42,614 nucleotides of DNA from Comamonadaceae bacterium. GTDB taxonomy: Bacteria; Pseudomonadota; Gammaproteobacteria; Burkholderiales; Burkholderiaceae_C. The position numbers and the translations under genes were made by a program. The stretch spans positions 1 to 42,614 of the forward strand of contig JAUMYU010000013.1 of the NCBI GenBank assembly GCA_030528485.1, read 5' to 3'. Positions 1,784-42,337 of the stretch are shown here, in pieces (the stretch's first letter is position 1; each line of letters opens with the position of its first letter). The notes under the pieces are model-generated. The model saw only the letters and a program-made list of their open reading frames with translations, had not been told where the DNA came from and ran no database searches.

Positions 1784-4156
1784 ATGAAGCCAGGCGATGC
1801 AGCGCCCCGGCCAGACGCACCAGCCGCCCCCGGGCTGACCTGGCTGGACGATGGCAGCCCTTACTCCCCCCGTTTTGACGAGCGTTACCACAGCCACCAC
1901 GACGGAGGCCTGGCGCAGGCGCGGGGCAGCTTTTTGCACGGCTGCGGCCTGCCAGCGGCCTGGGCGCAACGCCCGCAATGGCGCGTGCTGGAGACGGGCT
2001 TTGGCCTGGGGCTGAACTTTCTGGCCACCTGGCAAGCCTGGCGCGACGACCCGCAGCGCTGCGCGCGCTTGCATTTCATCTCTACCGAGGCCTATCCCGT
2101 CAGCGCCCAGGCCCTGCTGGAAGCGGCCCGCCAGCGTTATCCGGAGCTGGAACCGCTGGCGCAGCAACTGGCCACCCAATACACCGATATGCACACGGGC
2201 GTGCACCGCCTGAGCTTTGACGACAACCGCGTGCACCTCACCCTGGCCATTGGCGACGCCCGCGACAGCCTGCGGCAGGAAAGTTGGCAGGCCGACAGCG
2301 TGTTCCTCGATGGCTTCAGCCCCAGCCGCAACCCACAGATGTGGAGTGTGGACATATTCAAAGCCCTGGCGCGCTGCTGCGTGGCCGGGCATACGCGGCT
2401 GGCCAGTTGGTGCGTGGCTCGCAGCGTGCAGGACGCGCTGCGGCAATGCGGCTTTGAAGTAGAGCGCGTGCCGGGCACGCCGCCGAAAAAACACAATCTG
2501 CGCGCGCGCTATGCGCCTGCCTGGCAGCCCAGGGAGCGGCGCGCTGGCGCTACTGGTGTGTCGGCGACCATCGCCCCCTTGCCCGAGGCCTTGCGCCAGC
2601 AGCCGCAGCGCCATTGCGCCGTCATCGGTGCGGGCATCGCCGGGGCCAGCGTGGCGCGGGCCATGGCCGAGCGGGGATGGAGCGTCACCGTGCTGGAGCA
2701 AGCCAGCGGCCCTGCACAAGGCGCTTCGGCCCTGCCCGTGGGCTTGTTCGCCCCGCACGTTTCGCCCGACGACGCACCGCTGTCCAGACTGACACGCGCG
2801 GGCGTGCGCTGCATGCAACGCACCGCCGCCCGCCTGTTGCAACAGGGGGTGGATTGGCAACCCTCCGGCGTACTGGAGCACCGCATTGGCAAACGCAGCG
2901 GTTTGCCGCCTGCCCCCGCTGCTGCGCCTGCATGTGCTGCGATGGTGTTGGAACAAGCCAGCCACCGGCCAGAAGAAGCTGCTGCGCTCGCTCCCGATCC
3001 CGCTTCGCCCACGCCCCGCATTCCCAGCACCGCCACGCGGCTGGCAACGCAAGCCGAGCGCCTGAATGCGGGCATGGATTCGGGCATGGATGCAGCGGAG
3101 GCTGCCGCCAGTGCGCATCCAGTCTTGATGCACACCCAGGCTGGCTGGCTGCGCCCGGCGGCGCTGGTGCAGGCGCTGCTGGCGCACCCGCGCATCAGCC
3201 TGCGTACGGGCTGCTGCGTCAGCGCCATTGCGGCGCTGGAACCAACGCGCCCGCAAGCGCAGAACGCGGACAAGGGCACTGCCAGCACGCCCCACGGCGA
3301 GCATGAAAGCATGCTGCGCTGGCAAGTGCTGGGCCATGCCGCCGAGCCAGACGCGACGCCATCCCCCGCGACAGGGGCAATGAGCGCAGCGCCAAACGCC
3401 CCTCCACAGCCGCTGGCCCAAGCCGATTGCCTCGTCCTGGCAGGCGGCTATGGCAGCCTGGCGCTGGCGCGTTCGGTGCAGGCAGAAGCCGCGCAGCCGC
3501 CCCAGGCATCCCAAACGCCGCAAGCGCCCCAGCCTCTGGCGCACGCCGAGCTGCACGAAAGCCTTGTCCCCCCGCTGAACGCCGTGCGCGGGCAGGTGGC
3601 CTGGGGGCTGATTCCCCCTTCCAGCTCGCCAGAAAGATCGCCGCCAGAAGGGTCGCAGCCCTCTTGGCCCGATTGGCCCGCCTGGCCGGTCAATGGCAAA
3701 GGCAGCCTGATCGCCATCCCCGCGCCGTCGGGCCAAGGGCGGTTGTGGCTGAGCGGCGGCACGTTCGAGCGTGAAGACCCGCTGCAAGCGCCCACGCCGC
3801 AAGCCCAGGCCGATGCCTTGCGGCACAACCGCGAGCGCATCGCGGCTTTGCTGCCAGCGGCCGGGCCTGCGCTGGCGGCGCGCTTGTTTGACGGCGGCAC
3901 GCCCGTGCAACGCTGGGGCGCTGTGCGCTGCACCGTGCCTGATCGCTTCCCTGTGTACGGCCCTTGGCTGGCCCAAGTGCGAACGGGCAACGCGTTGCTG
4001 GCCACGGGCCTGGGTTCGCGTGGCCTGACGCTGGCGTGCTTGTGCGCGGAAATCCTCGCCGCCAGCCTGCATGCAGAGCCGCTGCCCGTGGCCCGCCATC
4101 TGGCCGCATCGCTGTTTGCAGGCCGCTTTGCGGCTGCAAGGACAGATCACTCATAA
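1784..4156 (+). CDS. mnmC: Bifunctional tRNA mnm5s2U biosynthesis protein MnmC
   Basis: Makes 5-methylaminomethyl-2-thiouridine at the wobble base of certain tRNAs. The C-terminal FAD domain removes the carboxymethyl group and the N-terminal SAM domain methylates the product. The N-terminal half shows ETGFGLGLNFL (SAM loop, near residue 66), FLDGFSPSRNPQMW, and PGTPPKKHNLRAR. The FAD domain begins near residue 278 with VIGAGIAGASVARAMAERG and ends with TGLGSRGLTLA. At 790 aa it is longer than the usual 650-670. The extra length is Ala/Pro/Gln-rich low-complexity insertion within the FAD half (roughly residues 380-450 and 510-640). Start chosen at ATG 1784, 20 bases after yggX; the frame upstream only overlaps yggX. 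Confidence 0.93.
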   Translation: MKPGDAAPRPDAPAAPGLTWLDDGSPYSPRFDERYHSHHDGGLAQARGSFLHGCGLPAAWAQRPQWRVLETGFGLGLNFLATWQAWRDDPQRCARLHFISTEAYPVSAQALLEAARQRYPELEPLAQQLATQYTDMHTGVHRLSFDDNRVHLTLAIGDARDSLRQESWQADSVFLDGFSPSRNPQMWSVDIFKALARCCVAGHTRLASWCVARSVQDALRQCGFEVERVPGTPPKKHNLRARYAPAWQPRERRAGATGVSATIAPLPEALRQQPQRHCAVIGAGIAGASVARAMAERGWSVTVLEQASGPAQGASALPVGLFAPHVSPDDAPLSRLTRAGVRCMQRTAARLLQQGVDWQPSGVLEHRIGKRSGLPPAPAAAPACAAMVLEQASHRPEEAAALAPDPASPTPRIPSTATRLATQAERLNAGMDSGMDAAEAAASAHPVLMHTQAGWLRPAALVQALLAHPRISLRTGCCVSAIAALEPTRPQAQNADKGTASTPHGEHESMLRWQVLGHAAEPDATPSPATGAMSAAPNAPPQPLAQADCLVLAGGYGSLALARSVQAEAAQPPQASQTPQAPQPLAHAELHESLVPPLNAVRGQVAWGLIPPSSSPERSPPEGSQPSWPDWPAWPVNGKGSLIAIPAPSGQGRLWLSGGTFEREDPLQAPTPQAQADALRHNRERIAALLPAAGPALAARLFDGGTPVQRWGAVRCTVPDRFPVYGPWLAQVRTGNALLATGLGSRGLTLACLCAEILAASLHAEPLPVARHLAASLFAGRFAAARTDHS

Positions 4157-4234
4157 ATTTAAATCAAAAGGAAATAAAAATACCATTTTTAGGCAAATCA
4201 GTAATCAAATCAATTTTACTTTGAAATATAAAAT
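4155..4234. repeat. Dispersed AT-rich hairpin repeat, copy 1 (reverse orientation)
   Basis: An AT-rich 80-base block between mnmC and earP. Read on the - strand it has the family pattern: arm ATTTCAAAGTAAAAT, core TTTGCCTAAAAATGG, arm ATTTCCTTTTGATTT. It is the only copy in this window whose core is on the - strand. Its right end runs directly into the GGAG that serves earP. Confidence 0.7.
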
Positions 4235-4245
4235 TGGAGCATGGC

Positions 4246-5505
4246 ATGCGTTGGGACATTTTTTGCCAGGTGATCGACAACTACGGCGATGCGGGCGTGT
4301 GCTGGCGGCTGGCGTGCGAGCTGGCCGCGCGGGGGCACAGCGTGCGCCTGTGGATCGACGACCCCGCCCCGCTGCACTGGCTTGGCGGCCTGCCCGCCAC
4401 GGAACCAGCCATCACCCAACCGTCCGCCACCGAACGCCCCATCCAACACCAGGGCCTGACCATCCTGCCCTGGCGCCCCGACCATGCCCAGCCCATCGCC
4501 CCGGCGCTGCTGCCCCAGGCACGGCCCGATGCTCTGCCGGGCACACTGCCCAATCCACTGCCCGATGTGCTGATCGAAGCCTTTGGCTGCGACATCCCCC
4601 AACCCTACCTCCAGGCGCTGGCCCAGCAGTGCCGCCCTGCGGGCGCGTCGCCCTGGCCCGTTTGGCTGAATCTGGAATACCTCAGCGCCGAGGACTACGT
4701 GCAGCGCATGCACCGCCTGCCCTCGCCTGTCATGCACGGCGCGGCGCAAGGGCGCAGCAAAACCTTTTTCTACCCCGGCTTCACCGCGCAAACGGGCGGC
4801 CTGCTGCGCGAGCAAGACCTGGCCGATCGGCAAGTGCGCTTTGACCAGGCCGTGTGGCGCCGCCAATGGCTGCCCGCCGTGCCACCCTCGCCTGCGCAGA
4901 CCTTGTGGATCAGCCTGTTCGCCTACGAGCCGGCCTGCCTGCGCGATTGGCTGCACCAATGGGCTTTCCCGGCCTCGACTGCGGCCCATCCTCCCCCGGT
5001 TGTGCACCTGCTGGCCGCCGCTGGCCGCTCGCAAACCTATTTGCGCCAATGCTGGGCGCAATTGGGCTGGCCCGAGCCGAGCGCCAGCGCCCCCTGGCAG
5101 CAGGGGCAATTGCATGTGCACTGGCTGGATTTCATGCCCCAGCCCGCCTACGACGAGCTGCTGTGGGCCTGCGATCTCAACATCGTGCGCGGCGAAGACT
5201 CGCTGGTGCGTGCGCTCTGGGCGGGCAAGCCGTTGCTCTGGCACATCTACCCGCAAGACGACAACGCCCACCACGCCAAGCTCGACGCCTTTCTGGACTG
5301 GCTGCAAGCCCCGCCCGACTGGCAGCGCGCCATGCACACCCTCAATGGCATGAGCCAAGCCCCCCACGTCAGCCCTGCGCCCACCAGCCCTGCGGCGCTC
5401 AGCCCCTGGCAAACCTGCGTGAGCGCCGCGCGCTCGTCCCTGCTGGCGCAAGACGATTTGGCCACTCAACTGCTGCTTTTCGTCCAACGCAGCCGGGAGG
5501 CTTGA
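4246..5505 (+). CDS. earP: EF-P arginine rhamnosyltransferase EarP
   Basis: A cytosolic inverting glycosyltransferase (GT-B fold, GT104) that transfers rhamnose from dTDP-beta-L-rhamnose to Arg32 of elongation factor P, which is needed for EF-P to rescue ribosomes at polyproline. The diagnostic N-terminal DNYGDAGVCWRL is at residues 11-22 and contains the two catalytic-site aspartates (D11, D15). The C-terminal nucleotide-sugar site RGEDSLVRALWAGKPLLWHIYPQ is also present. 419 aa against about 375-390 in most EarP. Start ATG 4246 has GGAG at 4236-4239 with six bases spacing; an in-frame TTG at 4234 is less likely. The target efp is in this window at 15699 and encodes Arg at position 32. The two genes are usually adjacent, so here they have been separated. 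Confidence 0.93.
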   Translation: MRWDIFCQVIDNYGDAGVCWRLACELAARGHSVRLWIDDPAPLHWLGGLPATEPAITQPSATERPIQHQGLTILPWRPDHAQPIAPALLPQARPDALPGTLPNPLPDVLIEAFGCDIPQPYLQALAQQCRPAGASPWPVWLNLEYLSAEDYVQRMHRLPSPVMHGAAQGRSKTFFYPGFTAQTGGLLREQDLADRQVRFDQAVWRRQWLPAVPPSPAQTLWISLFAYEPACLRDWLHQWAFPASTAAHPPPVVHLLAAAGRSQTYLRQCWAQLGWPEPSASAPWQQGQLHVHWLDFMPQPAYDELLWACDLNIVRGEDSLVRALWAGKPLLWHIYPQDDNAHHAKLDAFLDWLQAPPDWQRAMHTLNGMSQAPHVSPAPTSPAALSPWQTCVSAARSSLLAQDDLATQLLLFVQRSREA

Positions 5506-5607
5506 ACGCTGCACACAAGCCACGCGCAGCGGCTTTTGTGGTCGTTTTCGCCTGGATGCAGAGCCATAATCGACCCTTGTCCTTTTTCTTGTATTTGGGA
5601 GCCACCC

Positions 5608-6240
5608 TTGTTTTCCATCATCCAAGCCGCTGGCTGGCCCATCTGGCCGCTGATTTTTTGCTCCGTTATCGCCCTGGCCATCGTGGCCGAGCGTTTTTAC
5701 AGCCTCAAACGCGCCGCCATCGTTCCGCAAGGCCTGCTGAAAGAGGCGAAAACCGCCTCCTCCAAATACATCCCCCCTGCTGACGTGATCGACAAGCTGG
5801 AGCAAAACTCCGCCCTGGGCGAGCTGCTGGCGGCGGGCTTGCGCGCCCTCCAGGCCAACCCGCAAGCCAGTGAGGAATACCTGCGCCACGCCATCCAGAA
5901 CCGTGGCCGCCTGGTGGCCAACCGGCTGAACAAATTCCTGCAACCGCTGGCCACCATCGCCACCGCCGCGCCGCTGCTGGGCCTGCTGGGCACCGTGGTG
6001 GGGATGATCGCCATCTTCGCCTCGCAAGGTTCGATCGACGTCGGCGTGGTCACGGGCGATCCGGGCCAGCTCGCGCACGGCATTTCCGTGGCCTTGTACA
6101 ACACGGCGTTCGGGCTGATTGTGGCGATTCCGGCGCTGATTTTCTGGCGCTACTTCCGCAGCCGCGTCGATAGCTACATCCTGGAGCTGGAAGTGGCCAG
6201 CGAAGATTTCGTCAAGCACTTGCGGGGTTTGCAGCCATGA
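5608..6240 (+). CDS. MotA/TolQ/ExbB proton channel family protein
   Basis: Inner-membrane proton channel subunit that, with the ExbD/TolR-type partner encoded next, converts proton motive force into work on the envelope (TonB- or Tol-type system). One N-terminal membrane helix (IIQAAGWPIWPLIFCSVIALAIV) is followed by a cytoplasmic loop. Two further helices include the conserved LLGLLGTVVGMI and GISVALYNTAFGLIVAIPAL segments. I chose TTG at 5608, because the family begins with FSIIQAAGWPIWPL and a GGGA lies seven bases upstream; the frame before it has no similarity. 210 aa. It overlaps the next gene by four bases (ATGA). No tonB, tolA or tolB is nearby, so ExbB and TolQ cannot be separated. 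Confidence 0.9.
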   Translation: MFSIIQAAGWPIWPLIFCSVIALAIVAERFYSLKRAAIVPQGLLKEAKTASSKYIPPADVIDKLEQNSALGELLAAGLRALQANPQASEEYLRHAIQNRGRLVANRLNKFLQPLATIATAAPLLGLLGTVVGMIAIFASQGSIDVGVVTGDPGQLAHGISVALYNTAFGLIVAIPALIFWRYFRSRVDSYILELEVASEDFVKHLRGLQP

Positions 6241-6668
6241 ATTTCCGCGGTTCGCGCTTTCAGGACGGCACGGGCGAGCCGGAGATCAACCTGATCCCCT
6301 TCATCGACATCCTGCTGGTGATCCTGATCTTTCTCATGCTCACCACCACCTACAGCCGCTACAACGAGTTGCAGTTGAACCTGCCCTTGGCCAACGCCGA
6401 GCCGATGCGCGACAAGCCGCAAGAGATCGTCGTCTCGCTGGATACGGGCGGCAACTACGCAGTCGATGGCGCAGTCGTCGGCCCCGCCAGCCCCGCGCAG
6501 CTCACCAGCCTCTTGCAACAAGCCGCGCGCGCCAAGCCGCAAGCCATCGTCGTCATCAGCGCCGATGGCCTGGCCTCGCACCAATCGGTGGTCTCCATCA
6601 TGGAAGCCGCGCGTAACGCCGGCCTGGCCCGCGTGACGTTCGCCACCCAGGCCACACCAGGGCATTGA
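6237..6668 (+). CDS. ExbD/TolR family biopolymer transport protein
   Basis: 143-aa partner of the preceding channel protein. It has a short cytoplasmic start, one membrane helix with the key aspartate in NLIPFIDILLVILIFLM (the proton-responsive Asp near residue 23), and a periplasmic domain with NLPLANAE and AKPQAIVVISADG. ATGA overlap with the upstream gene indicates translational coupling. In many Burkholderiales exbBD is followed by lpxK and kdsB; here the operon ends at a hairpin repeat and the convergent pyk. Confidence 0.9.
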   Translation: MNFRGSRFQDGTGEPEINLIPFIDILLVILIFLMLTTTYSRYNELQLNLPLANAEPMRDKPQEIVVSLDTGGNYAVDGAVVGPASPAQLTSLLQQAARAKPQAIVVISADGLASHQSVVSIMEAARNAGLARVTFATQATPGH

Positions 6669-6740
6669 GCGCCCCACTACCGGGCAGCTCCCCCTCGCGC
6701 CGCCGCCCCCTGAAGCCCAAGGCCGCCATCGCGGTCTTTT

Positions 6741-6826
6741 CATTTCATGGGAAAATACATTTCAATAACAGCATGCCAAAAATATGATGATTTGTTTGCC
6801 TATTGATTTGAAATTTATAGGCAAAT
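6741..6826. repeat. Dispersed AT-rich hairpin repeat, copy 2
   Basis: AT-rich block between the convergent exbD-like and pyk genes. Core GCATGCCAAAAATA is on the + strand, left arm ATTTCAATA and right arm TATTGATTTGAAAT. A second overlapping hairpin, TTTGCCTAT (6795-6803) with ATAGGCAAA (6817-6825), is formed by its right end and could end transcription from either side. Confidence 0.68.
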
Positions 6827-6859
6827 CCCCATCCGGCGCCTATGCCCCGCCACGCTACT

Positions 6860-6883
6860 CCCTCTCCCACTTGCGGGAGAGGG
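6860..6883. repeat. REP-like stem-loop CCCTCTCCC/GGGAGAGGG
   Basis: A perfect nine-base-pair stem with loop ACTTGC, followed by GCTTGGGTGGGGGC. This C/G-rich inverted repeat resembles a widespread class of proteobacterial intergenic repeat (established knowledge). It sits in the 3' gap between the exbD-like gene and pyk, next to the AT-rich repeat. Confidence 0.6.
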
Positions 6884-6945
6884 CTTGGGTGGGGGCGCCC
6901 GCCAAGGCGCCAAGGAGCCAGCGGACACACTATTGAAAACAGGCC

Positions 6946-8469: not shown

Positions 8470-8505
8470 GGTGGTGATGGTGGTGTGGTGGTTGCAAGAA
8501 GGGGC

Positions 8506-10354: not shown

Positions 10355-10363
10355 ATTCCACAT

Positions 10364-14329: not shown

Positions 14330-14405
14330 TTTACAAATCAATGTAAAATTCATTTCAATACAATCATGCCAAAACAATAGTATTTTGTTTCTTTTGATTT
14401 GTAAA
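14330..14405. repeat. Dispersed AT-rich hairpin repeat, copy 3
   Basis: The outer arms are a perfect 12-base inverted repeat, TTTACAAATCAA (14330-14341) and TTGATTTGTAAA (14394-14405). The core AATCATGCCAAAACAA lies between them. It follows the antiporter stop and ends 11 bases before the LhgO-like start codon, so it contributes the leader of that gene. Confidence 0.75.
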
Positions 14406-14415
14406 AATAACGAAA

Positions 14416-16322: not shown

Positions 16323-16372
16323 GCCGCGCTTTCACTTTTTTTCATTCACCCATCAGCAGTAAAGGATTGTTC

Positions 16373-17716
16373 ATGTCTGATCTGTCCCTCCAGCAATTTC
16401 TCGAGCACATCGCCCAGCGCAACCCCGGTCAGCCCGAATTCCAGCAAGCGGCCACCGAAGTGTTCGAGAGCCTGTGGCCCTTCATCAGCAAGCACCCGCA
16501 ATACGCCGAACACAACCTGCTGGAGCGCCTGGCGGAGCCCGAGCGCATCATCATGTTCCGCGTCTGCTGGGTGGACGACGCGGGCAAGGTGCAAGTCAAC
16601 CGCGGCTACCGCATCCAGCACAGCATGGCCATCGGCCCCTACAAGGGCGGCCTGCGCTTTCACCCCTCGGTCAACCTCTCGGTGCTCAAATTCCTGGCCT
16701 TCGAGCAAACCTTCAAGAACGCGCTGACCACCCTGCCCATGGGCGGCGGCAAGGGCGGCTCGGACTTCGACCCCAAGGGCAAGAGCAATGGCGAAATCAT
16801 GCGCTTTTGCCAGGCCTTTGCCGCCGAGCTGTACCGCCACGTCGGCGCCGACACCGACGTGCCCGCGGGCGACATCGGCGTGGGCGGGCGCGAGATCGGC
16901 TACATCGCCGGCTACATCAAAAAGCTCACCAACCGCGCTGACTGCGTGCTCACCGGCAAGCCGCTGAACCTGGGCGGCTCGCTGATCCGCCCCGAAGCCA
17001 CCGGCTACGGCACCGTGTACTTTGCCGAGGCCATGCTCAACGAGGCGCGCAACTCCTTCCAGGGCATGAAGGTGGCCGTCTCCGGCTCGGGCAACGTGGC
17101 GCAATACGCCATCGAAAAAGCCATGGCCCTGGGCGCCACCGTCGTGACCTGCTCGGACTCCAACGGCACGGTGTACGACCCGGCGGGCTTCTCGCCCGAG
17201 AAGCTGGCCATCCTGATGGACATCAAGAACGTGCAGTACGGCCGCGTCAAGGACTACGCCGCCAAGGTCGGCGCCGAGTACATCGAAGGCAAGCGCCCCT
17301 GGCACATCCCGGCCGAAGTCGCCCTGCCCTGCGCCACGCAAAACGAGCTGGACGAGAACGACGCCAAGACGCTGATTGCCAACGGCGTGGTCTGCGTGGC
17401 CGAAGGCGCCAACATGCCTTGCACCATCGAGGCGGCCAAAGCCTTTGAAAACGCCGGCGTGCTGTTCGCGCCCGGCAAGGCCAGCAACGCCGGCGGCGTG
17501 GCCACCTCCGGGCTGGAGATGAGCCAGAACGCCATGCGCCTGGCCTGGACGCGCCAGGAAGTGGACCAGCGCCTGTTCGGCATCATGCAAAGCATCCACA
17601 AGGCCTGCCTGGAGTACGGCCGCCGCGCCGACGGCAAGGTCAGCTACATCGACGGCGCCAACATCGCCGGCTTCGTCAAAGTGGCCGACGCCATGCTGGC
17701 CCAGGGCGTGGTTTAA
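16373..17716 (+). CDS. gdhA: NADP-type glutamate dehydrogenase
   Basis: 447-aa hexameric-type GDH that makes glutamate from 2-oxoglutarate and ammonia. Conserved parts: YKGGLRFHPSVNLSVLKFL with the substrate lysine, then PMGGGKGGSDFDPKG (catalytic lysine region). DIGVGGREIGY, the Rossmann loop VSGSGNVAQYA, and EGANMPCTIEA follow. The length and the DSNGTVYDP segment after the cofactor loop point to the NADP(H) biosynthetic form. Start ATG 16373 has AAAGGA six bases upstream; an in-frame TTG at 16367 is less likely. The gene has its own terminator at 17751. Confidence 0.95.
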   Translation: MSDLSLQQFLEHIAQRNPGQPEFQQAATEVFESLWPFISKHPQYAEHNLLERLAEPERIIMFRVCWVDDAGKVQVNRGYRIQHSMAIGPYKGGLRFHPSVNLSVLKFLAFEQTFKNALTTLPMGGGKGGSDFDPKGKSNGEIMRFCQAFAAELYRHVGADTDVPAGDIGVGGREIGYIAGYIKKLTNRADCVLTGKPLNLGGSLIRPEATGYGTVYFAEAMLNEARNSFQGMKVAVSGSGNVAQYAIEKAMALGATVVTCSDSNGTVYDPAGFSPEKLAILMDIKNVQYGRVKDYAAKVGAEYIEGKRPWHIPAEVALPCATQNELDENDAKTLIANGVVCVAEGANMPCTIEAAKAFENAGVLFAPGKASNAGGVATSGLEMSQNAMRLAWTRQEVDQRLFGIMQSIHKACLEYGRRADGKVSYIDGANIAGFVKVADAMLAQGVV

Positions 17717-17750
17717 GCCTTTTCAAGCCCCCGGCCACGATCTCGTGCCG

Positions 17751-17786
17751 AGCCGGATGGCGGAACCCCCGCCATCCGGCTATTTT
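17751..17786 (+). terminator. Terminator hairpin of gdhA
   Basis: AGCCGGATGGCGG and CCGCCATCCGGCT form a perfect 13-base-pair stem with loop AACCC, followed by ATTTTC. The following AT-rich repeat begins inside its tail. Confidence 0.85.
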
Positions 17787-17860
17787 CATATCAAGATAAA
17801 AACAATTTGAATACCACCATGCCGAAATAGGCATATTTTTTTGCCTATTGAATGATAAAA
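17782..17860. repeat. Dispersed AT-rich hairpin repeat, copy 4
   Basis: Left arm ATTTTCATATCAA, core CACCATGCCGAAATAGGCAT and right arm TTGAATGATAAAAAT. Inside the core CATGCC/GGCAT also pair, as in the copy at 38 kb. It starts at the gdhA terminator tail and its right arm contains the ATG at 17852 that opens the folK frame. Confidence 0.72.
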
Positions 17861-18442
17861 ATGAATGAAATCGCTGCCAAACCCACCGCTTCAGCCCCTC
17901 AAAACAACCACCACCTCGTTGCCAGCGACGCCCTGGCCTGGATCGGCCTGGGCGGCAACTTGGGCGACGCCATCGCCACCCTGGAGCACGCCGCCCACGC
18001 CCTGGCCCGCCTGCCCGACACCCGGCTGGAAGCCGCCTCCCCCCTCTACCGCAGCGCCCCCGTCGATGCCCAGGGGCCGGACTTCATCAACGCCGTTGTG
18101 CGCCTGCGCACCCGCCTGGCGCCCCTGCCCCTGCTGCGCGCGCTGCTGGCGCTGGAACTCGACGCAGGCCGCCAACGCCCCTGGCGCAACGCCCCGCGCA
18201 CCCTGGATCTGGACCTGCTGCGCTACGAGCAGGCAGGCGCCGCCCTCACCTGCCACAGCAAGGAGCTCACCCTGCCCCACCCCCGCATGCAGCAACGCGC
18301 CTTCGTGCTGCGCCCCCTAGCCGACATCGACCCCACCCTGGCCCCTGCAACCGCCCTGGCCGCCACCGCCGATCAAACGCTGGAGCGCCTGCCCCAGGCA
18401 CAGCAATGGACATGGAGCGAGCAGCCCGCGAGCAACTCCTGA
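17852..18442 (+). CDS. folK: HPPK: 6-hydroxymethyl-dihydropterin pyrophosphokinase
   Basis: Transfers pyrophosphate from ATP to the pterin, the step before dihydropteroate synthase in folate synthesis. Marks: WIGLGGNLGD, SPLYRSAPVDAQGPDFINAVVRL, the RPWRNAPRTLDLDLL segment (the usual GPRTLDLDLL with Ala in place of Gly) with the Mg-binding DLDLL, and LPHPRMQQRAFVL. 196 aa from ATG 17852; ATG 17861 is equally possible. Similarity begins only near residue 30, and both ATGs fall in or at the edge of the hairpin repeat. The N-terminal extension may therefore be derived from the repeat. In other Burkholderiales folK usually follows pcnB; here it follows gdhA. Confidence 0.9.
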   Translation: MIKMNEIAAKPTASAPQNNHHLVASDALAWIGLGGNLGDAIATLEHAAHALARLPDTRLEAASPLYRSAPVDAQGPDFINAVVRLRTRLAPLPLLRALLALELDAGRQRPWRNAPRTLDLDLLRYEQAGAALTCHSKELTLPHPRMQQRAFVLRPLADIDPTLAPATALAATADQTLERLPQAQQWTWSEQPASNS

Positions 18443-19346: not shown

Positions 19347-19363
19347 GGCATTCACACTAGGGA

Positions 19364-19518
19364 TTGTTGAGATTGGGTTTGCGAAGCGGTTTTTCGAGAC
19401 AAAAGCCGCAGATGCAAGGCGAAAACGCACACAAGGCGTGAACAGCTTGCAAGCGTTTTCAACGCCGCAGATGCACAGTTTTGACCGAAAACAACGCCGC
19501 AATACTGAATCTCAACAA
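19364..19518. repeat. Intergenic inverted-repeat element (MITE-like), about 155 bp
   Basis: The largest gene-free stretch (19347-19730) holds this element. Its ends are TTGTTGAGATT (19364-19374) and AATCTCAACAA (19508-19518), a perfect 11-base inverted repeat with a further TTGCG match inward. Internally CCGCAGATGCA occurs twice, each next to a GGCGAAAACG- or CCGAAAACAACG-like stretch. On the - strand it is open and reads as an Arg/Cys-rich peptide, the kind of spurious protein often seen when such repeats are translated. The rest of the gap (19519-19730) shows no gene; it is the leader of the nitroreductase. Confidence 0.65.
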
Positions 19519-19730
19519 GCCCTCGGTCGGGCATCGCAATCGCTGCACAACGAGGGCCGCAAAGGCGGCTGTGCGCCGGTTGAAAGGGGCGGGATCGACA
19601 GCCAATTTTCCGGGCTTTTGCATTGATAATCCGGCGCTTTTGCGCTTTTTCCGCGCGCTTTTTGCCTGGAGCGGGTGCGCTGCGGTTTGTGCAGCACAGC
19701 TTCAGCCATTTTTTTTCAAAGGGGGTTTCA

Positions 19731-23930: not shown

Positions 23931-26398
23931 TGCCAAAGGCCCAGGCGCTCGCCCGCTCGCATGCCCTGCTTGCCGGGGCGCTGGTGGCCGCTGTACTGGG
24001 CAGCGCCCCAAGCGCCTCTTGCGCACCCACCCTGCCCGGCTTTGCCCAGGTGCGCGCAGACTTTCACGGCTCAGAGACCTGGCTGCTCGATCGCCAGGGC
24101 CAGCGCATCCAGCGCGTACGCACCGATTTCCAGGCCCGGCGCGGCGACTGGACTGCCCTGGAGGACATCTCCCCTGCCCTGCTGCACGCCATCTTGCTCA
24201 CCGAGGACAAACGCTTTTACGAACACAGCGGTGTGGATTGGGCCGCCGTCGGCTCCGCCGCCTGGGGCAACTTGTGGAACGAGCGCACCCGTGGCGCCTC
24301 CACCATCACCATGCAACTGGCGGGCCTGCTCAACGCCGAGCTGCGCGCCCGCACAGGCGGGCGCACCTGGCGGCAAAAATGGCGTCAGCTCTGGAGCGCG
24401 CGCGATTTGGAGGCGCACTGGAGCAAGGCCGAAATCCTGGAGGCCTACGTCAACCTCGCCCCCTTTCGCGGCGAGCTGATCGGTATCGACAGCCTGGCGC
24501 GCAACACCTTCGGCAAAGCCCCCAATGGGCTGGATGCGCGCGAAGCCGCCCTCACCGCCGCCCTGCTGCGCGCACCCAATGCCCCTGCAGCCCGGGTGGC
24601 CGAGCGCGCCTGCCTCATCCTCGCCCAGGCCCAATCGCCCTGGGGGCAAGATTGCCGTGCCCTGCGGCTTTACACCGAAGCCGCGCTCAGCCGCCCCGCC
24701 CAGCGCGCCGCCAGCGGCGACGCCCCGCACTTCGCCCGCTACGCCATGCGTGGGGCCGTACAGCCGCAACCCGCCCAGCCTGCCGAGCCGGCTGCCCCCC
24801 ACAATCACACCGCACCAGCCAACGCCGCCCGCGCGCGCGAAGTGCGTGCAGTGCGCGAAATCCCCAGCAGCCTCGACAGCCGCCTGCAACGCCACGCCGC
24901 CCAGGCGCTGCAACAGCAGGTACAAGCCCTGGCCCGGCACAACGTGCACGACGGCGCCGCGCTCGTGCTCGACAACGCCAGCGGCGAAGTGCTGGCCTGG
25001 GTCGGAACCTCGGGCCTGAGCCGCTCGCCCGAGGTGGACGCCGTGCTCGGCCTGCGCCAACCCGGCTCCACCCTCAAACCCTTTCTCTACGCCCAGGCCA
25101 TTGCGCAAAAACGCCTCACTGCCGCCTCGCTGCTGGAGGATTCGCCCACGCGCATCCCCACCGCCTTCGGCCTGTACGCGCCCGAGAATTACGACCAAAG
25201 CTACAAAGGCTGGGTTTCCGTGCGCCAGGCCCTGGGCAGCTCGCTCAACATCCCCGCCGTGCGTGCGCTGCGCATGGTTTCGCCCGAATCCTTTGCCCAA
25301 CTGCTGCGCGCGCTGGAATTGAACCTGCCCGAACCAGCAGGCTATTACGGCTATGCCCTGGCCCTGGGCGGCGTGGACGCCAATCTGCTGCAACTGACCA
25401 ACGCCTACCGCACCCTGGCCAACGGCGGCCTGCACAGCCCCATCCGCACCCAGGTGCAGCCCCCGCCCGCAACTCTGCCCGCAACAATGCAAGCGGCCAA
25501 CGCCGCCCTGCCCGTTGCATCACCCACCACATCGCCCGACGGCCACCGCGTGCTCGATGCGCCCGTGGCCTACATCGTCGGCGACATCCTCTCCGACCGG
25601 CACGCACGGCTGCTCACCTTCGGCACCGACAGCGCCCTGGCCACGCGCTTTTGGAGCGCCGTCAAAACCGGCACCAGCCAGGACATGCGCGACAACTGGG
25701 CCATCGGCTACACGCCGCACTTCACCATTGGCGTGTGGGTCGGCAACGCCGACGGCTCGCCCATGCACAACGTCAGCGGCATTGCGGGCGCAGCCCCCGT
25801 CTGGGCCAGCATCGCCGCCTTCGCCCACCGCCTGCGCCCCGGCAAGCGCCCCGCTCCTCCGCCAGATCTGGTGCGCCTGCGCGTGCGCTACCTGGCTGAA
25901 AACACCGGCGGGGGCGCCAGCGAGAACGACCGCCCCAGCGCCGCCCCCGCCCCCTTGCTGGAAGCCGAACGCGATGAATGGTTTTTGCCCGGCACCGAGC
26001 AAGCCCAAATCACCCTGCGCCGCGCCCCGGCGCCCGCACTGGCTGCGCCCTCCGGCACTGGCGCTGGGGGGCGCGATCCAACTCCGGCCCGGCCCGACGC
26101 GCGCATCCTGGAGCCTGCCGACGGCACCATCCTCGCCCTCGACCCCGACATTCCCCCCGCCAACCAGATGCTGCGCATTGCCAGCAACCACCCCGCCCCC
26201 AGTTGGTGGCTTAACGGCCAGCGCGTCAGCGGCTTGCAGCCAGGCCATCGCCACTGGTACTGGCCGCCCGCGCCAGGACGCCACACCATCGAACTGCGCA
26301 GCGCCAGCGGCCAGCGCGTAATCGACCGCGTGCGCATTGAAGTGCGCGGCGCCAGCCTCAAGTCCGGAAATTCAATATACCAATCAAAAGAAAATTGA
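23930..26398 (+). CDS. pbpC: Penicillin-binding protein 1C
   Basis: 822-aa bifunctional class A PBP. N-terminal signal anchor (LLAGALVAAVLGSAPSASCA); GT51 transglycosylase with LTEDKRFYEHSGVD near residue 90, RGASTITMQLAGLL and GRTWRQKWRQ. The transpeptidase has the serine in PGSTLKPFLY (near 380), SSLNIPAV and KTGTSQDM (near 578). A C-terminal BiPBP_C domain ends near residue 810. It starts on the last base of the pilS stop. The final residues (SIYQSKEN) and the TGA are encoded by the left arm of a hairpin repeat, so the natural C-terminus was probably altered. A partner alpha-2-macroglobulin gene, common beside pbpC, is absent. Confidence 0.93.
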   Translation: MPKAQALARSHALLAGALVAAVLGSAPSASCAPTLPGFAQVRADFHGSETWLLDRQGQRIQRVRTDFQARRGDWTALEDISPALLHAILLTEDKRFYEHSGVDWAAVGSAAWGNLWNERTRGASTITMQLAGLLNAELRARTGGRTWRQKWRQLWSARDLEAHWSKAEILEAYVNLAPFRGELIGIDSLARNTFGKAPNGLDAREAALTAALLRAPNAPAARVAERACLILAQAQSPWGQDCRALRLYTEAALSRPAQRAASGDAPHFARYAMRGAVQPQPAQPAEPAAPHNHTAPANAARAREVRAVREIPSSLDSRLQRHAAQALQQQVQALARHNVHDGAALVLDNASGEVLAWVGTSGLSRSPEVDAVLGLRQPGSTLKPFLYAQAIAQKRLTAASLLEDSPTRIPTAFGLYAPENYDQSYKGWVSVRQALGSSLNIPAVRALRMVSPESFAQLLRALELNLPEPAGYYGYALALGGVDANLLQLTNAYRTLANGGLHSPIRTQVQPPPATLPATMQAANAALPVASPTTSPDGHRVLDAPVAYIVGDILSDRHARLLTFGTDSALATRFWSAVKTGTSQDMRDNWAIGYTPHFTIGVWVGNADGSPMHNVSGIAGAAPVWASIAAFAHRLRPGKRPAPPPDLVRLRVRYLAENTGGGASENDRPSAAPAPLLEAERDEWFLPGTEQAQITLRRAPAPALAAPSGTGAGGRDPTPARPDARILEPADGTILALDPDIPPANQMLRIASNHPAPSWWLNGQRVSGLQPGHRHWYWPPAPGRHTIELRSASGQRVIDRVRIEVRGASLKSGNSIYQSKEN

Positions 26399-26453
26399 CT
26401 TTATATGCAACATGCCATAGAAGGGTGATTTTATTTCTTATTGATTTGTAAAA
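26370..26453. repeat. Dispersed AT-rich hairpin repeat, copy 5
   Basis: Left arm AATCAAAAGAAAAT (26382-26395), core GCAACATGCCATAGAAGGG, right arm ATTTCTTATTGATTTGTAAA. It lies between the convergent pbpC and queG. Its left arm overlaps the end of the pbpC reading frame and supplies the stop codon. Confidence 0.75.
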
Positions 26454-26465
26454 TGCATGTATCAT

Positions 26466-33725: not shown

Positions 33726-33742
33726 GCAGGCGAACCTAATTT

Positions 33743-33815
33743 TATCAATCAAAGGAAATGACACATTATGCCCATCAAGCCATAACACGCCATTTTTCAA
33801 TCCTTTGAATTGCAA
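33743..33815. repeat. Dispersed AT-rich hairpin repeat, copy 6 (first of a tandem pair)
   Basis: Left arm CAATCAAAGGAAATG, core TTATGCCCATCAAGCCATAA, right arm CATTTTTCAATCCTTTGAATTG. One arm carries a four-base insertion relative to the other. It lies between the convergent permease and SBF transporter. Confidence 0.75.
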
Positions 33816-33830
33816 AACCCAGGCCGCAGG

Positions 33831-33907
33831 ATTATCCATCAAAAGAAAACCCCATCATTGCCCATCAAGCCAAAACGGGGCGATTTATTTTCTTTTTGAT
33901 ATGGAAT
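33831..33907. repeat. Dispersed AT-rich hairpin repeat, copy 7 (second of a tandem pair)
   Basis: Left arm ATCAAAAGAAAA with inner CCCC, core TTGCCCATCAAGCCAAAA, inner GGGG and right arm TTTTCTTTTTGAT. The outer pairing extends to GGATTATCC / GGAATATCC. The CCCC/GGGG step is absent from other copies but is complementary here, which supports a folded structure. Confidence 0.78.
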
Positions 33908-33919
33908 ATCCAATCCGGA

Positions 33920-34909: not shown

Positions 34910-35015
34910 GGAAGAACCTGGTCACAAAACCCCGCATTTTCCCTTTTTTTGCCCGCAACACCGCAAAGCCGTCCAGGACGCCAATGCAGCCGCGCTGACC
35001 GATAATCGCCCCCTT

Positions 35016-36156: not shown

Positions 36157-36254
36157 AGCGCCGCCGGCGCGCCCAGACTGCCCCTGAGCGCCCCTGACCG
36201 CCCTAACCCAACCCCATCGCCCCCGACTGCAACCGATTTCCCCCACCCGCTTGC

Positions 36255-36734: not shown

Positions 36735-36781
36735 ATGCATAGCCGCCTGCACGCGCGCCGCCCAGTCTTCAAATTTCAAAA

Positions 36782-38065: not shown

Positions 38066-38066
38066 C

Positions 38067-38143
38067 GTATCCTATCAAAGGAAAATTCGCTTTATACCCA
38101 TCATGCCGAAACAGGCATGTTTATTTTCCTTTTGATTTGTAAA
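38067..38143. repeat. Dispersed AT-rich hairpin repeat, copy 8
   Basis: The cleanest copy: ATCAAAGGAAAAT (38074-38086) pairs with ATTTTCCTTTTGAT (38123-38136) with one extra base. The core ATCATGCCGAAACAGGCATG contains its own hairpin CATGCC/GGCATG (38102-38107 and 38114-38119). It lies between pldA and hemW and ends 22 bases before the hemW start. Confidence 0.82.
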
Positions 38144-38165
38144 AAATAAACACCAAAACTGCCGC

Positions 38166-39440
38166 ATGCCCCTTCCCAGCATCGTTGGCGCCGAGTCGGC
38201 GGCATCCGGCCAGCGCCCCGCCGACATCCAGCATTACCTGCGCCCCGGCATCTTGCAACTGCATGAGCTGCCGCCGCTGGCGCTCTACATCCACCTGCCC
38301 TGGTGCGTGCGCAAATGCCCCTATTGCGACTTCAACTCCCACGCCAGCCCTCGGGCACAAACGCCGGCGTCGGCCCTTGATCCCGCCCTCATCGGGCGTT
38401 ACCTCCAGGCGCTCGAAGCCGATCTGGACGCCGCCCTGCCCCTCATCTGGGGCCGCCAGGTCATCAGCATCTTCATCGGCGGCGGCACCCCCAGCCTCTT
38501 TTCCGCCCAGCACATCGACAGCCTGCTCGCCAGCGTGCGTGCGCGCCTGCGGCTGCTGCCCGGCTGCGAAATCACCCTGGAAGCCAACCCCGGCACCTTC
38601 GAGAAAGACCGCTTCGCCGCCTACCGCGCCGCCGGCGTCACGCGCCTGTCCATCGGCGTGCAAAGCTTTGACAATGCCCTGCTGCAACGCCTGGGCCGCA
38701 TCCACAACCGCGCCCAGGCCCTCGCCGCCGTGGAAGAAGCCCGCGACGCCTTCGAGACCTTCAACCTCGACCTCATGTACGCCCTGCCCGGCCAGGACAT
38801 GGCCGCTTTTGCCCAGGACCTGCACACCGCCCTGGCCCTGCAACCGCCGCACCTCTCCGTCTATCACCTCACCATCGAGCCCAACACCTACTTCGCCAAA
38901 TACCCGCCCCCCGCCCTGCCCGATGACGACCTGGCCTACGACATGCTCGACGCCATCACCGCCGCCACCGCCGCAGCAGGGCTGGATCGCTACGAAGTCT
39001 CCGCCTACGCCCGAGGCGGCCACACCTGCCAGCACAACCTCAACTACTGGCAGTTTGGCGACTACCTGGGCATCGGCGCCGGCGCGCACAGCAAACTCAG
39101 CTTCGCCCATCGCATCGTGCGCCAGGTGCGCCTGCGCGATCCGCTGCGTTACACCGCCGCCGCCCTGCAAGGCGCGCCCATCGCGCAAGAGAGCGACATC
39201 CCCCGCCGCGAACTGCCCTTTGAATACATGCTGTGCGCCCTGCGCCTGCGCCAGGGCTTTGCACTGCAAGACTTCCACGCCCGCACCGGCCTGCCCCTCT
39301 CCAGCGTGCAAGCGCCCATCGAGCAAGCCATCGCCCGCGGCCTGCTCGAGCAACCCCACCCCGGCCACATCCGCCCCACCGCGCGCGGTTTTGATTTCCT
39401 CAGCGATTTGCAGCAATCGTTTTTGCCGGAAGAAACATGA
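38166..39440 (+). CDS. hemW: Radical SAM heme chaperone HemW
   Basis: 424-aa radical SAM protein, formerly called HemN-like; it binds heme and delivers it to membrane enzymes rather than acting as a coproporphyrinogen dehydrogenase. CVRKCPYCDFNSH (near residue 46-58) is the 4Fe-4S/SAM motif CxxxCxxC. Next come FIGGGTPSL, EANPGT, RLSIGVQSF and LDLMYALPGQ. The later YEVSAYARGGHTCQHNLNYW and YLGIGAGAHSK contain the HNxxYW segment of the HemW branch. Start ATG 38166. The usual neighbours rdgB and rph are missing; here it is preceded by a hairpin repeat. Confidence 0.93.
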   Translation: MPLPSIVGAESAASGQRPADIQHYLRPGILQLHELPPLALYIHLPWCVRKCPYCDFNSHASPRAQTPASALDPALIGRYLQALEADLDAALPLIWGRQVISIFIGGGTPSLFSAQHIDSLLASVRARLRLLPGCEITLEANPGTFEKDRFAAYRAAGVTRLSIGVQSFDNALLQRLGRIHNRAQALAAVEEARDAFETFNLDLMYALPGQDMAAFAQDLHTALALQPPHLSVYHLTIEPNTYFAKYPPPALPDDDLAYDMLDAITAATAAAGLDRYEVSAYARGGHTCQHNLNYWQFGDYLGIGAGAHSKLSFAHRIVRQVRLRDPLRYTAAALQGAPIAQESDIPRRELPFEYMLCALRLRQGFALQDFHARTGLPLSSVQAPIEQAIARGLLEQPHPGHIRPTARGFDFLSDLQQSFLPEET

Positions 39441-39496
39441 GCTGCAAAACCGCGCAGCCCGCGTGAAAATCAGGCACTCCATATTTCCCCGAAAAT

Positions 39497-40372
39497 ATGC
39501 GCAATATTCCCCCCATTCACCTGATCGTGGCATTCGATGCCGTCGCACGGCTGCAAAGTTTCACCGCTGCCAGTCAGGAACTGCACCTTTCCAACAGCGC
39601 CATCAGCCACAGAATCCGGGAACTTGAGCAAATCCTGAAAACCACGCTTTTCCATCGCACCACCCGCAGCGTCACCCTCAGCCCCGAAGGCGCTTATTTG
39701 CACCATCAAGTGCGCGCATCGCTGGCCAGCCTCGAAACCGCCTTCAGCAACCTGACGCTGGAGCGCGATGTGGTGCGCATCAGCGCGCTCCCGTCTTTTG
39801 CAAGGTTTCGTTTACTCCCCGCATTAACGGATTTTCATAAAACCCACCGCCGCATCTCCATCACCCTGCATCCAAGCACCCAAATCGCCAATATCGACCA
39901 AGGCGAGGCCGATATTGCCATCCGGTTTTCCAGCAAAACCCCGCAAGCGCATTATTGCGAGCTATTGCTCAAAGACGAGTGGTTTCCCGTTGCCGCCCCA
40001 CGATACCTCCAGCAACTCGGCCACGGCAGTCTCAGCGAGCTTTTCGAACGTGCAGACCTGCTGACGCACAGCCGCCAACCCTGGCAACCCTGGATGCAGG
40101 CCGCTGGCATCCCTGTTTCTGCCCTCCAGCGCAATATCACCTATTCCGATACCGGATTTTTGCTCGATGCAGCCCTGAATCTGCAAGGCATTGCGCTCGG
40201 CAGGCGCTCACTCGTCCAGCGCCTGCTTCAAGACGGCAGCCTGGTTCGCATTTCCGACGTGGCCATTCCCTCCGCGCAATCCTATTTTCTGCTCGCATCG
40301 GAGCGCGCCATGTTGTCGCGTTATGGGGAAACTGTCATCCAATGGATTCGCTCCATTGCTGCCAGCGGATAA
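39497..40372 (+). CDS. LysR-family regulator (GcvA-like)
   Basis: 291 aa. The N-terminal winged helix is at about 5-65 (FDAVARLQSFTAASQELHLSNSAISHRI, then LFHRTTRSVTLSPEG). The effector domain follows with ISALPSFARFRLLP and DIAIRFSSK, in the style of GcvA/AmpR-type regulators. The gene is clearly poorer in G and C than its neighbours: 39781-39840 has 29 G/C of 60 by hand count. That suggests transfer. It ends one base before the convergent exporter pseudogene, so the two probably arrived together. It may once have controlled that exporter. Confidence 0.9.
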   Translation: MRNIPPIHLIVAFDAVARLQSFTAASQELHLSNSAISHRIRELEQILKTTLFHRTTRSVTLSPEGAYLHHQVRASLASLETAFSNLTLERDVVRISALPSFARFRLLPALTDFHKTHRRISITLHPSTQIANIDQGEADIAIRFSSKTPQAHYCELLLKDEWFPVAAPRYLQQLGHGSLSELFERADLLTHSRQPWQPWMQAAGIPVSALQRNITYSDTGFLLDAALNLQGIALGRRSLVQRLLQDGSLVRISDVAIPSAQSYFLLASERAMLSRYGETVIQWIRSIAASG

Positions 40373-40373
40373 A

Positions 40374-41277
40374 TCAGCGCAAAACGGTTAATGCAATGCC
40401 CAGCAAAACACCCAAAATCGCCACCACTTTCTGGGGAATGTGAAGCTCCCGAAAGAAAATGGCCGAAAGCAGGAAAACCATCACCAGATTCGTGCGGCGC
40501 AAAACCGAGATGACGGAAATCATTGCCCCATCCTGACGCACGGCTGCCAGGTAAATATATTCAGCCAGCACATAAGCAAAGGCTATTGCGGGGATCGCCC
40601 AATTCCGGCGCAAAAGGCTGGATACCTCCACCTCTCTGAAAATCCAGGGCAGCAACAACAAAGCCAACCCGCCGCGCTGAAGCGCCGAATACGCCTGCAC
40701 AGCCGCCAAATCCAGATGCAAAGTCGAGAGAATGTATTTGTCGTACAAGGCACATCAAGGTGGCTGCCAGCATGCACAAAACCCACACATTGCGCCCGAA
40801 GGAAATCCCTTCCTTTTTCCCTATGAGGGAAAAAAGGTAATAAGAAGCCATCGCCACGGCAAGCCCCAGCCACTGCGTCCAACTCAAAACCTCTGACAAA
40901 AACAGCATGGCGCCCAAAGCCGTCCATAACGGGCCGCTGGCCCTGACTCCCGCCGAAATGGAAAGGGGCAAGAACTTGACCGAATAATAAGAAAGCACCC
41001 AGGTCGCCACCATCAGAATGGATTTTGGCAATACGGCCATCTGCTGTGCCACCGTCAACTCCTGTGGTGACAAATGAAATGCCTGCAAAGCATCTTGGTA
41101 TGCGGGCGGGATAATAAAAAACGGCAACCACATCAGCCCCCCGAGCAGGGAGCACCAGAAAACAACCTCCAGAACGCCTTTTTCCTTCAAGGCAATCTTC
41201 GTCAAAAAATCATAAGCGCCCAGAATAATACCCGCCAGCAAACCCAGAGAAACCCACCCCATGCCTGAATCCATCAT
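40374..41277 (-). pseudogene. EamA/DMT-superfamily exporter, frameshifted
   Basis: Two open frames on the - strand together make one ten-helix DMT transporter. Frame A (from ATG 41277 or 41262) gives GWVSLGLLAGIILGAYDFLTK through SYYLFSLIGKKEG and WVLCMLAATLMC. Frame B takes over with LYDKYILSTL and runs to the stop at 40374 with LGVLLGIALTVLR. The switch lies at about 40747-40753, where two bases appear to be missing (or one gained) in TGCCTTGTAC; restoring GC gives the continuous CALYDKYIL. It is a real frameshift, a sequencing error, or less likely a recoding site. Function if intact would be export of an amino acid, drug or metabolite. Lower GC than the core genes. Confidence 0.8.
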
Positions 41278-41486
41278 GCGATATCCAACCAAAAACCTGC
41301 GATAACCAAAAACAAAACCATCAAATAGTAATGAATTTCCCCGCCACGGATTGGTGAATATTTTGAATAAATGGTTGAAAACTGCTGCAAAATCAACCCT
41401 TGTTGCGGGCTGTGCCATCCCGATTCAAGCATTTGGGGCGCGGGCTGCATCAGAGCGTGTTATGAACTTTCCGCCCCCTTCACACC

Positions 41487-42242
41487 ATGACCATGACCAC
41501 CCCTTTGCACACCCCCGCCTGCCCTTCCTGCCGCCAGCCCATGCAGGCGCTCAGCCTGGAGGCCCGCAACGGCCCGGTGGAGCTGGATTTGTGCTTTGCC
41601 TGCCACGGCATTTGGTTTGACCGGCTGGAAAGCCTGCAATTGAGCGCGCGCAGCGTGCTGGAGCTGTTCAAAACCCTGCACGCCCACCGCGATGCGCCGC
41701 ACAGCCCGCTCAGGGAGCGCATGCATTGCCCGCGCTGCGCCGAGCCGCTGGCGCGCGGCAGCGACCGCACCATCAGCGGCAGCTACATCGTGTACCGCTG
41801 CGCGACGCACGGGCGGTTTTCCACGTTTTCGTCCTTCATGGTGGAAAAAGGCTTTGTGCGCCACCTGGCCCCGGCGGAAATCGAGCGCCTGGCGCAAAAG
41901 GTGCGCATCATCCATTGCAGCAGTTGCGGGGCATCGGTGGATTTGCGCCGCGACCATGCCTGCCCGTATTGCCGTTCGGCCTTTTCGCTGCTCGATCCGC
42001 AGGCGGTGGAAAAGGCGCTGGAGCACTACCAGCAAGCGCCTGCGCCGGTGGATCCGCACGCCCGAGTGGATGAAACCAGCGCCGCCGTAGTGCTGGCCAA
42101 GGAGCGCATGCACCAGCAAAACCGCGAACGGGAGCGCCAGCGCCGCCGCGAGGAGCCGGGCTGGACGGAGATGTTCCAGGACGAACTCTGGTCCGCAGGT
42201 CTATCCCTGCTGCTGCGCAGCCTTGCCCGCTGGCTGAAGTAG
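41487..42242 (+). CDS. zf-TFIIB-domain zinc-ribbon protein
   Basis: 251 aa with several zinc-ribbon knuckles: CPSC (residues 12-15) with LDLCFACHGIWFDRLE, then CPRC with a later YRCATHG, and CSSC with CPYC. The first pair is the zf-TFIIB domain found in many uncharacterised bacterial proteins. The C-terminal third is a charged Arg/Glu coiled-coil-like stretch (RENRERERQRRREE type) ending in a hydrophobic tail, SLLLRSLARWLK. Function unknown. Start ATG 41487 (or 41493). The 209 bases before it are AT-rich and hold no recognisable gene. Confidence 0.75.
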   Translation: MTMTTPLHTPACPSCRQPMQALSLEARNGPVELDLCFACHGIWFDRLESLQLSARSVLELFKTLHAHRDAPHSPLRERMHCPRCAEPLARGSDRTISGSYIVYRCATHGRFSTFSSFMVEKGFVRHLAPAEIERLAQKVRIIHCSSCGASVDLRRDHACPYCRSAFSLLDPQAVEKALEHYQQAPAPVDPHARVDETSAAVVLAKERMHQQNRERERQRRREEPGWTEMFQDELWSAGLSLLLRSLARWLK

Positions 42243-42261
42243 CACGCCCAGAATACTCAAC

Positions 42262-42337
42262 ATATCCAATCAAAGGAATCATCGTTTTATGCTGGATATG
42301 CCTAAAAACGGTGATTTTTATTCCTTTGATTGATAAT
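42262..42337. repeat. Dispersed AT-rich hairpin repeat, copy 9
   Basis: AATCAAAGGAAT (42268-42279) and ATTCCTTTGATT (42320-42331) are a perfect 12-base inverted repeat. Inward, ATCGTTTT and AAAACGGT continue the pairing with one G-T. Core GGATATGCCTAAAAACGG. It follows the zinc-ribbon gene. Confidence 0.8.

Follow-up and report, generated by a model that had tools for sequence, protein, structure and literature searches.

A lineage-specific family of AT-rich intergenic repeats in Comamonadaceae, tentatively interpreted as protein-wrapped DNA sites

Background

The best described dispersed repeats of bacterial intergenic DNA that resemble those reported here are the repetitive extragenic palindromic (REP) sequences and bacterial interspersed mosaic elements (BIMEs) of enterobacteria and pseudomonads. 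REPs have been given a length of 20-40 bp (PMC3733652), those tabled in PMC2817692 are mostly GC-rich and tagged with GTAG or GTGG, and REPs have been described as binding gyrase, IHF and DNA polymerase I and as lying often between convergent genes (PMC1525189). Escherichia coli DNA gyrase cuts BIME-2, its 130-bp motif has flanks with a 10.75-bp periodicity of GC content, and its sites are enriched behind operons that are strongly transcribed (PMC6379681). In this study, we report the analysis of a family of AT-rich repeats, nine copies of which lie in a 42,614-nucleotide stretch of DNA (hereafter the window) that forms the entire contig JAUMYU010000013.1 of the Comamonadaceae bacterium assembly GCA_030528485.1.

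Like REPs and BIMEs, the repeats are high-copy extragenic palindromes often found between convergent genes; unlike them, they are about 85 bp long, AT-rich, untagged and mostly single, and the genomes carrying the full family lack a gene for a Y1 transposase (REP-associated tyrosine transposase, RAYT). Correia-like and enterobacterial repetitive intergenic consensus (ERIC)-like elements are miniature inverted-repeat transposable elements (MITEs), with which the present repeats share short length, inverted-repeat ends and high copy number; they differ from MITEs in showing no insertion polymorphism at testable sites, almost no truncated copies and no partner transposase found. They may resemble the gyrase motif in having a long and symmetric footprint, the base composition of their flanks being phased with the helix clearly on the right and weakly on the left; the strict base consensus of the centre, the divergence hot spot seen here, and the position of the phased flanks farther out, set them apart from it. 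We tentatively read the family as DNA sites that are confined to one lineage, under selection and wrapped by a protein, and that resemble BIMEs in position without belonging to REP/BIME.

Methods

The source assembly (G000) comprises 2.36 Mb in 132 contigs and is 80% complete. Its sister species Allofranklinella schreckenbergeri NML 97-0147 (G009; family Comamonadaceae) is represented by a 99% complete genome, and G005, G007 and G008 are congeners of the two. The G000 sample consisted of 439,083 bp (the window plus 20 further stretches) and the G009 sample of 257,116 bp.

The original prediction, made on the window alone, had proposed that its nine copies be turned into a covariance model; this model (R1) was built and run against G000 and relatives. 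The pair columns of R1 were misplaced, and it therefore behaves mainly as a sequence model. Later sequence-only profiles were derived from R1 matches and so depend on it, while the plain repeat search is independent of R1. The column alignment contained 162 copies, since 9 of the original 171 had at least 12 gaps and were left out, and pairwise orthologue statistics were computed on 46 G000-G009 pairs after four of the 50 mapped copies were dropped (G009 segment longer than 260 bp). Fourfold-site, distance and mutation-spectrum figures were obtained with a first, cruder gene caller that gave false open reading frames (ORFs); all location counts were obtained with a second one.

Results and discussion

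Conserved bases within fast-diverging sites

The consensus of the 162 copies reads CAAATCAAAGGAAAA, a variable stretch, a core around CATCATGCC-N-AAAC-A-AGG, a second variable stretch and TTTTNTTTCCTTTTGATTTGTAAA. The arm-core-arm layout described in the original prediction was right. The arms are complementary in the consensus. AT content steps up sharply about 6 bp before the 73-column profile and drops about 4 bp after it, which places the length of the element at about 82-85 bp.

Between orthologous copies, informative columns, picked from paralogues alone to avoid circularity, differ at 47 of 1396 sites (3.4%) and uninformative columns at 189 of 679 (27.8%); the first lists of conserved and variable columns, picked post hoc and applied to 24 gapless pairs, gave 1.9% and 24.2%, respectively. 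Yardsticks from the same genomes were 7.5% at fourfold sites (994/13255), 6.2% in noncoding DNA separated by over 60 bp from any element, 5.9% in AT-rich noncoding DNA and, for other hairpins (56 of 88 dropped as incompletely aligned), 3.7% in arms, 8.8% in loops and about 8% in flanks. Since the informative columns are slow and the others exceed the fourfold rate, the sites are constrained and yet are local hot spots of divergence. Noncoding divergence falls from 24% at 1-10 bp from an element to 16% at 11-20 bp and 13% at 21-30 bp, stays at about 10% up to 100 bp, and is about 5% past 200 bp, and fourfold sites within 30 bp of an element diverge by 17% (n=176) as against 6-8% farther out. 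Changes between A and T are raised in the elements (119/2791) and in noncoding DNA within 30 bp (29/714) relative to AT-rich control DNA (3/1101) and noncoding DNA at 31-100 bp (5/752), so that relaxed constraint alone explains the divergence poorly. In a segment common to G005 and G000, 6 of 76 element sites differ, compared with 27 of 1640 around them (Fisher p=0.003). Of the selected fold with a conserved core proposed originally, the selection is visible, but it is seen on fixed base identities, which points to DNA-protein recognition.

A similar contrast between columns might be produced if short tracts of some copies overwrote others, since bases common to the family would then look conserved and unshared ones fast. 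Changes between A and T and from G or C to A or T are strongly raised, as if redrawn from an AT-rich family pool, and at least 20 of the 27 variable positions agree in 37 paralogue pairs, where column shuffles of the 101 copies give 3.4 such pairs. Such exchange is nevertheless quite improbable, as the divergence of variable columns, taken pair by pair, spans 10% to 60% without a gap (median 25%) and shows no visible division into old and replaced copies, the recent differences between G005 and G000 are scattered single bases, and the flanks outside the element are raised too.

Folding and covariation

The arms had been described as variable from copy to copy yet complementary within each, with compensatory change keeping a fold. 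Single-copy folds reached z scores of -1.8 or lower for the copies predicted at 14330, 17782, 33743, 33831, 38067 and 42262, the lowest being -5.2 (42262), and were near zero for those at 4155, 6741 and 26370. When halves were permuted among 100 G000 copies, real copies folded at -14.8 kcal/mol and permuted ones at -13.5 kcal/mol (z -4.2), with both strands alike; the inner part alone gave z -2.9, and z was below -2 in 12 of the 100 copies. No covariation was detected in the 162 copies: the top column pair reached z 3.2 over all pairs, arm pairs were paired about as expected from column frequencies, and G-T at the variable arm pair 10-59 showed no excess (0.24 observed, 0.28 expected). RNAalifold predicted zero pairs from the nine window copies. 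Swapping halves between orthologues (46 pairs) caused no loss of folding energy (mean difference +0.19, s.e. 0.24; 18 better, 24 worse, p=0.29). Variable but complementary arms thus survive weakly, as a modest pairing excess within copies and with no covarying pair of alignment columns; the lack of covariation and the half-swap result give no support to a fold maintained through compensatory changes, though many copies are palindromic.

These results also bear on whether the repeat is selected as RNA, either as a folded structure of the 3' untranslated region or as a bidirectional terminator. The location behind stop codons, the good folds of some copies (that at 42262 above all) and the weak complementarity within copies would suit such an element. 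It is made improbable, even more so than exchange among copies, by the covariation and half-swap nulls, by G-T at pair 10-59 not exceeding expectation, by strands that pair alike and orientations that are both used, and by the ordinary GC-rich terminator-like hairpins that several copies adjoin (by eye).

Occupied sites and the search for a mobile partner

Both flanks of 50 of the 111 G000 profile matches could be mapped in the sampled G009 stretches, and all 50 places were occupied there. Conversely, 49 of 65 G009 matches were mapped in G000 and 47 were occupied; the remaining two rows represent one weak palindromic spot (15-16 bits) without a length difference. Y1 transposases (PF01797) are present in 5 of 10 genus genomes, with none in G000 and none in G009. 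Profiles of half elements gave only 1 and 11 weak matches beyond the profile matches in the sampled stretches (best E 0.62), and no pairs of half elements were found in these stretches, which are part of each genome. The view that the repeats are DNA hairpin ends of a mobile element is not supported, given the 50 shared copies, the lack of Y1 genes in the full carriers and the want of clear target-site duplications. A REP or REP doublet (REPIN) family served by a RAYT was considered and rejected on the missing GTAG/GTGG tag, the length of about 82-85 bp, the AT-richness and the missing Y1 gene in carriers.

A somewhat unlikely alternative is that the copies are functionless relics of a MITE-like or REP-like element, amplified once in an ancestor whose transposase has been lost, with the location at 3' ends reflecting tolerated insertions. 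The sharp boundaries and inverted-repeat ends, a high copy number limited to one lineage and paralogues that range gradually from near the consensus to farther away are all as expected of relics, as are a faint excess of direct repeats just beyond the AT boundary (spread over more than one offset) and one copy that lacks the 5' arm (L034:13669). Relic families, however, usually contain truncated copies. Here that copy is the only one of 176 profile matches that looks truncated, the other four of the five partial matches having both arms in diverged form (by eye), and the half profiles gave nothing credible elsewhere. No empty sites were seen by length among the 50 testable G000 copies, and neutral sequence should not hold columns at 3.4% beside neighbours at 27.8%.

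At 19357-19526 the window carries another dispersed repeat, about 165 bp long, whose ends are inverted (GGGATTGTTGAGATT ... AATCTCAACAAGCCC) and which is frequent in G005, G007 and G008. A 166-bp presence/absence difference between G009 and G000 at one place suggests that this repeat is a mobile MITE. The end of the contig (1-137) carries a further repeat, common to several other G000 and G009 contigs and one G007 contig, with a reading frame that we take to resemble the C-terminus of an IS5-type transposase.

Helical phasing of the flanks

AT content around the elements was analysed for periodicity in 97 G000 and 125 G009 copies, many of them orthologous and part of the G009 set having been found through the core pattern. 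In the right flank, the strongest tested period was 10.5 bp in both genomes, and none of 300 circular shuffles was as strong. Power at 10-11 bp in the right flanks was 0.024 and 0.046. The left flank was phased weakly, its power at 10-11 bp exceeding that of shuffles (p=0.013 in G000, 0.007 in G009, and 0 of 300 shuffles for the combined set). In descriptive terms, when both sides were averaged about the GCC core, AT peaks fell near 46, 57, 66, 77 and 88 bp, and the left and right phases (137 and -150 degrees) were roughly mirror images.

Position relative to genes

Copies sit at the 3' ends of genes, most often between convergent genes. Among G000 spacers of at least 80 bp, a copy is present in 31 of the 46 convergent ones, in 54 of the 145 tandem ones and in 7 of the 48 divergent ones (convergent versus divergent, p=2e-7), and no copy of the G000 sample is centred more than 30 bp inside a called gene. 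The 82 copies in tandem spacers of both genomes lie at a median of 17.5 bp from the upstream stop and 79 bp from the next start. Orientation relative to transcription shows no clear preference (20 versus 34 in G000, p=0.08). Several copies stand directly beside GC-rich hairpins resembling ordinary terminators (by eye).

Copy number and distribution

R1 found at least 150 copies in G000, all with E<1e-6 (the best 150 of 1187 candidates). The G000 sample contained 103 copies by R1 at E<=0.01 and 111 by an nhmmer sequence-only profile, and the G009 sample 65 profile matches, one place in each set being called on both strands. This density of about one per 4 kb extrapolates to roughly 550-700 copies per genome and bears out the several hundred anticipated originally. 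When 40 genomes (G000 and 39 relatives) were searched with R1, at least 119 matches each were obtained in G000 and G009, two in G005 and one in G008; the other 36, six of the same genus included, gave no match at E<=0.01. G009 is the only other full carrier found. A scan of 84,980 species genomes for the exact consensus core, which may omit the source genome and which diverged or low-copy families would escape, returned 36 stretches, all of A. schreckenbergeri NML 97-0147.

One copy compared by BLAST with plasmids and phages, and the exact core pattern sought in viral contigs, gave no match, and Rfam at gathering scores identified only one tRNA in the window. Among the titles and abstract openings listed in literature searches on the species, intergenic repeats, REP/BIME, phased A-tracts and gyrase sites, none described the family. 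The original statement that the repeat belongs to no recognised named family is in keeping with these searches.

The two G005 matches (L053 and L055, G005:C18) lie in segments that we read as recent transfers within the genus, judging by sequence identity. Over 1.9 kb, L053 shows 98% identity to G000 but 88% to G009, and is read in this way because G005 matches to genes of the first 20 kb of the window lie, among the matches listed, between 67% and 89% apart from a single one of 96%. The second place is 94% identical to G009, repeat copy included. The surroundings of the G008 copy have no strong match in G000 and a 77% match in G009. Since copies moved to G005 together with their surroundings, and since they are intergenic and form no clear subfamilies, a signal for DNA uptake spread by biased transformation rather than by transposition was considered. 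Known DNA-uptake words are far shorter than about 85 bp; the length of the repeat with its three conserved blocks, and a divergence hot spot just tens of bp wide, render this alternative very improbable.

The nine copies of the window

All nine places named in the original prediction carry the repeat. They were recovered by the plain repeat search, as families D1-D3 plus the inverted pair I1, by R1 and by two profiles; the nine are the sole window matches of R1 (E 3.1e-8 or lower) and of the two R1-derived profiles. The first copy (4154..4230, 63 bits with R1) is on the minus strand and the other eight are on the plus strand. It lies between earP (TIGR03837, above cut-off) and an ORF that is presumably mnmC-like. 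The second (6739..6816, 75 bits) occupies the convergent spacer between pyruvate kinase (family match) and an ORF that we assume to be exbD-like. The third (14332..14407, 75 bits) begins 27 bp past the stop codon of a calcium/sodium antiporter ORF (TIGR00367, above cut-off), and the fourth (17785..17861, 77 bits) lies 3' of glutamate dehydrogenase (NF006929, above cut-off). A GC-rich terminator-like hairpin (by eye, in the region 17740-17800) immediately precedes the fourth copy. The glutamate dehydrogenase gene itself (16372-17719) is 96% identical in G005 and G007, far over their other matches, and may possibly have been acquired by gene transfer.

The fifth copy (26378..26454, 83 bits) is in a convergent spacer and overlaps the end of a penicillin-binding protein 1C ORF (TIGR02073, above cut-off), which enters the element and takes its stop codon (26396-26398) from it. 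The sixth (33743..33818, 67 bits) starts 17 bp past the stop of an ORF weakly resembling lactate permease (TIGR00795, below cut-off), and the seventh (33833..33909, 70 bits, also found by the plain repeat search) follows at 90 bp from it in the same convergent spacer. The eighth copy (38069..38145, 86 bits) is located 3 bp past the stop of a phospholipase A-like ORF (NF008031, below cut-off) and is followed by hemW (TIGR00539, above cut-off), while the ninth (42264..42339, 73 bits) is located 21 bp past the stop of ORF 41487-42242, which has no family match.

A proposed protein-wrapped site

Taken together, the fixed bases, indifference to orientation, lack of covariation, immobility and helical phasing argue for recognition and wrapping of double-stranded DNA by a protein. 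The explanation we tentatively prefer, which may well need revision, is that a DNA-wrapping protein recognises each copy, at the end of a transcription unit, as a double-stranded DNA site of about 85 bp whose flanks are phased. The arms and the TGCC-N-AAA core would provide base-specific contacts for the protein and the phased flanks would form the wrap; the job of the sites would be to manage supercoiling or to insulate neighbouring transcription, as has been proposed for gyrase-binding BIMEs. The divergence hot spot could be a side effect of the bound protein opening or cutting the DNA strands.

As to that protein, DNA gyrase is put forward by analogy as a first guess, and a doubtful one; some nucleoid protein is as likely. 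The IHF site has the consensus WATCAANNNNTTR. The arms of the repeat hold ATCAA, but its consensus has no TTR at the required spacing (by eye) and the number of HU/IHF genes is ordinary, and an IHF site was therefore rejected.

Several observations weigh against the wrapped-site interpretation. The carriers have no extra HU/IHF gene, and no candidate wrapping protein was identified in them. The strongest tested period of the left flank was 11-12 bp in G000 and 7 bp in both G009 and the combined set, a weak signal, and a faint 10-11 bp signal is likewise seen at element-free stops (power 0.0037, p=0.015), lower than the power in the right element flanks. In the last 60 bp of element-free genes, fourfold divergence is 9-10%, so that part of the rise near elements is a gene-end effect. 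No relation was found between the integrity of a site and its divergence, and the small pairing excess within copies is present among paralogues. The strict consensus of the central bases is unlike the degenerate E. coli gyrase motif. Finally, PMC6379681 reports no association between spontaneous mutation and the gyrase sites of E. coli, a result that speaks against the simplest way of explaining the hot spots by gyrase.

A wider form of the proposal, which we regard as unlikely, is that protein-wrapping sites of a single design, present in hundreds and spaced at about one per 4 kb at the ends of transcription units, would act as topological insulators. Occupancy or cleavage by the bound protein would then raise mutation throughout the genome at every site and in the 30 bp or so to its left and right, and selection would preserve the contact bases only.

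Conclusions

The function and upkeep of BIME-like elements are a long-standing question, to which the present family adds an independent, AT-rich case where direct tests disfavour both mobility and RNA folding. Rapid change of the intervening bases allows its presumed contact bases to be read from evolution. Should gyrase or a nucleoid protein bind the sites, these would constitute a dense, hard-wired topological map of the chromosome and a natural experiment on protein-induced mutation.

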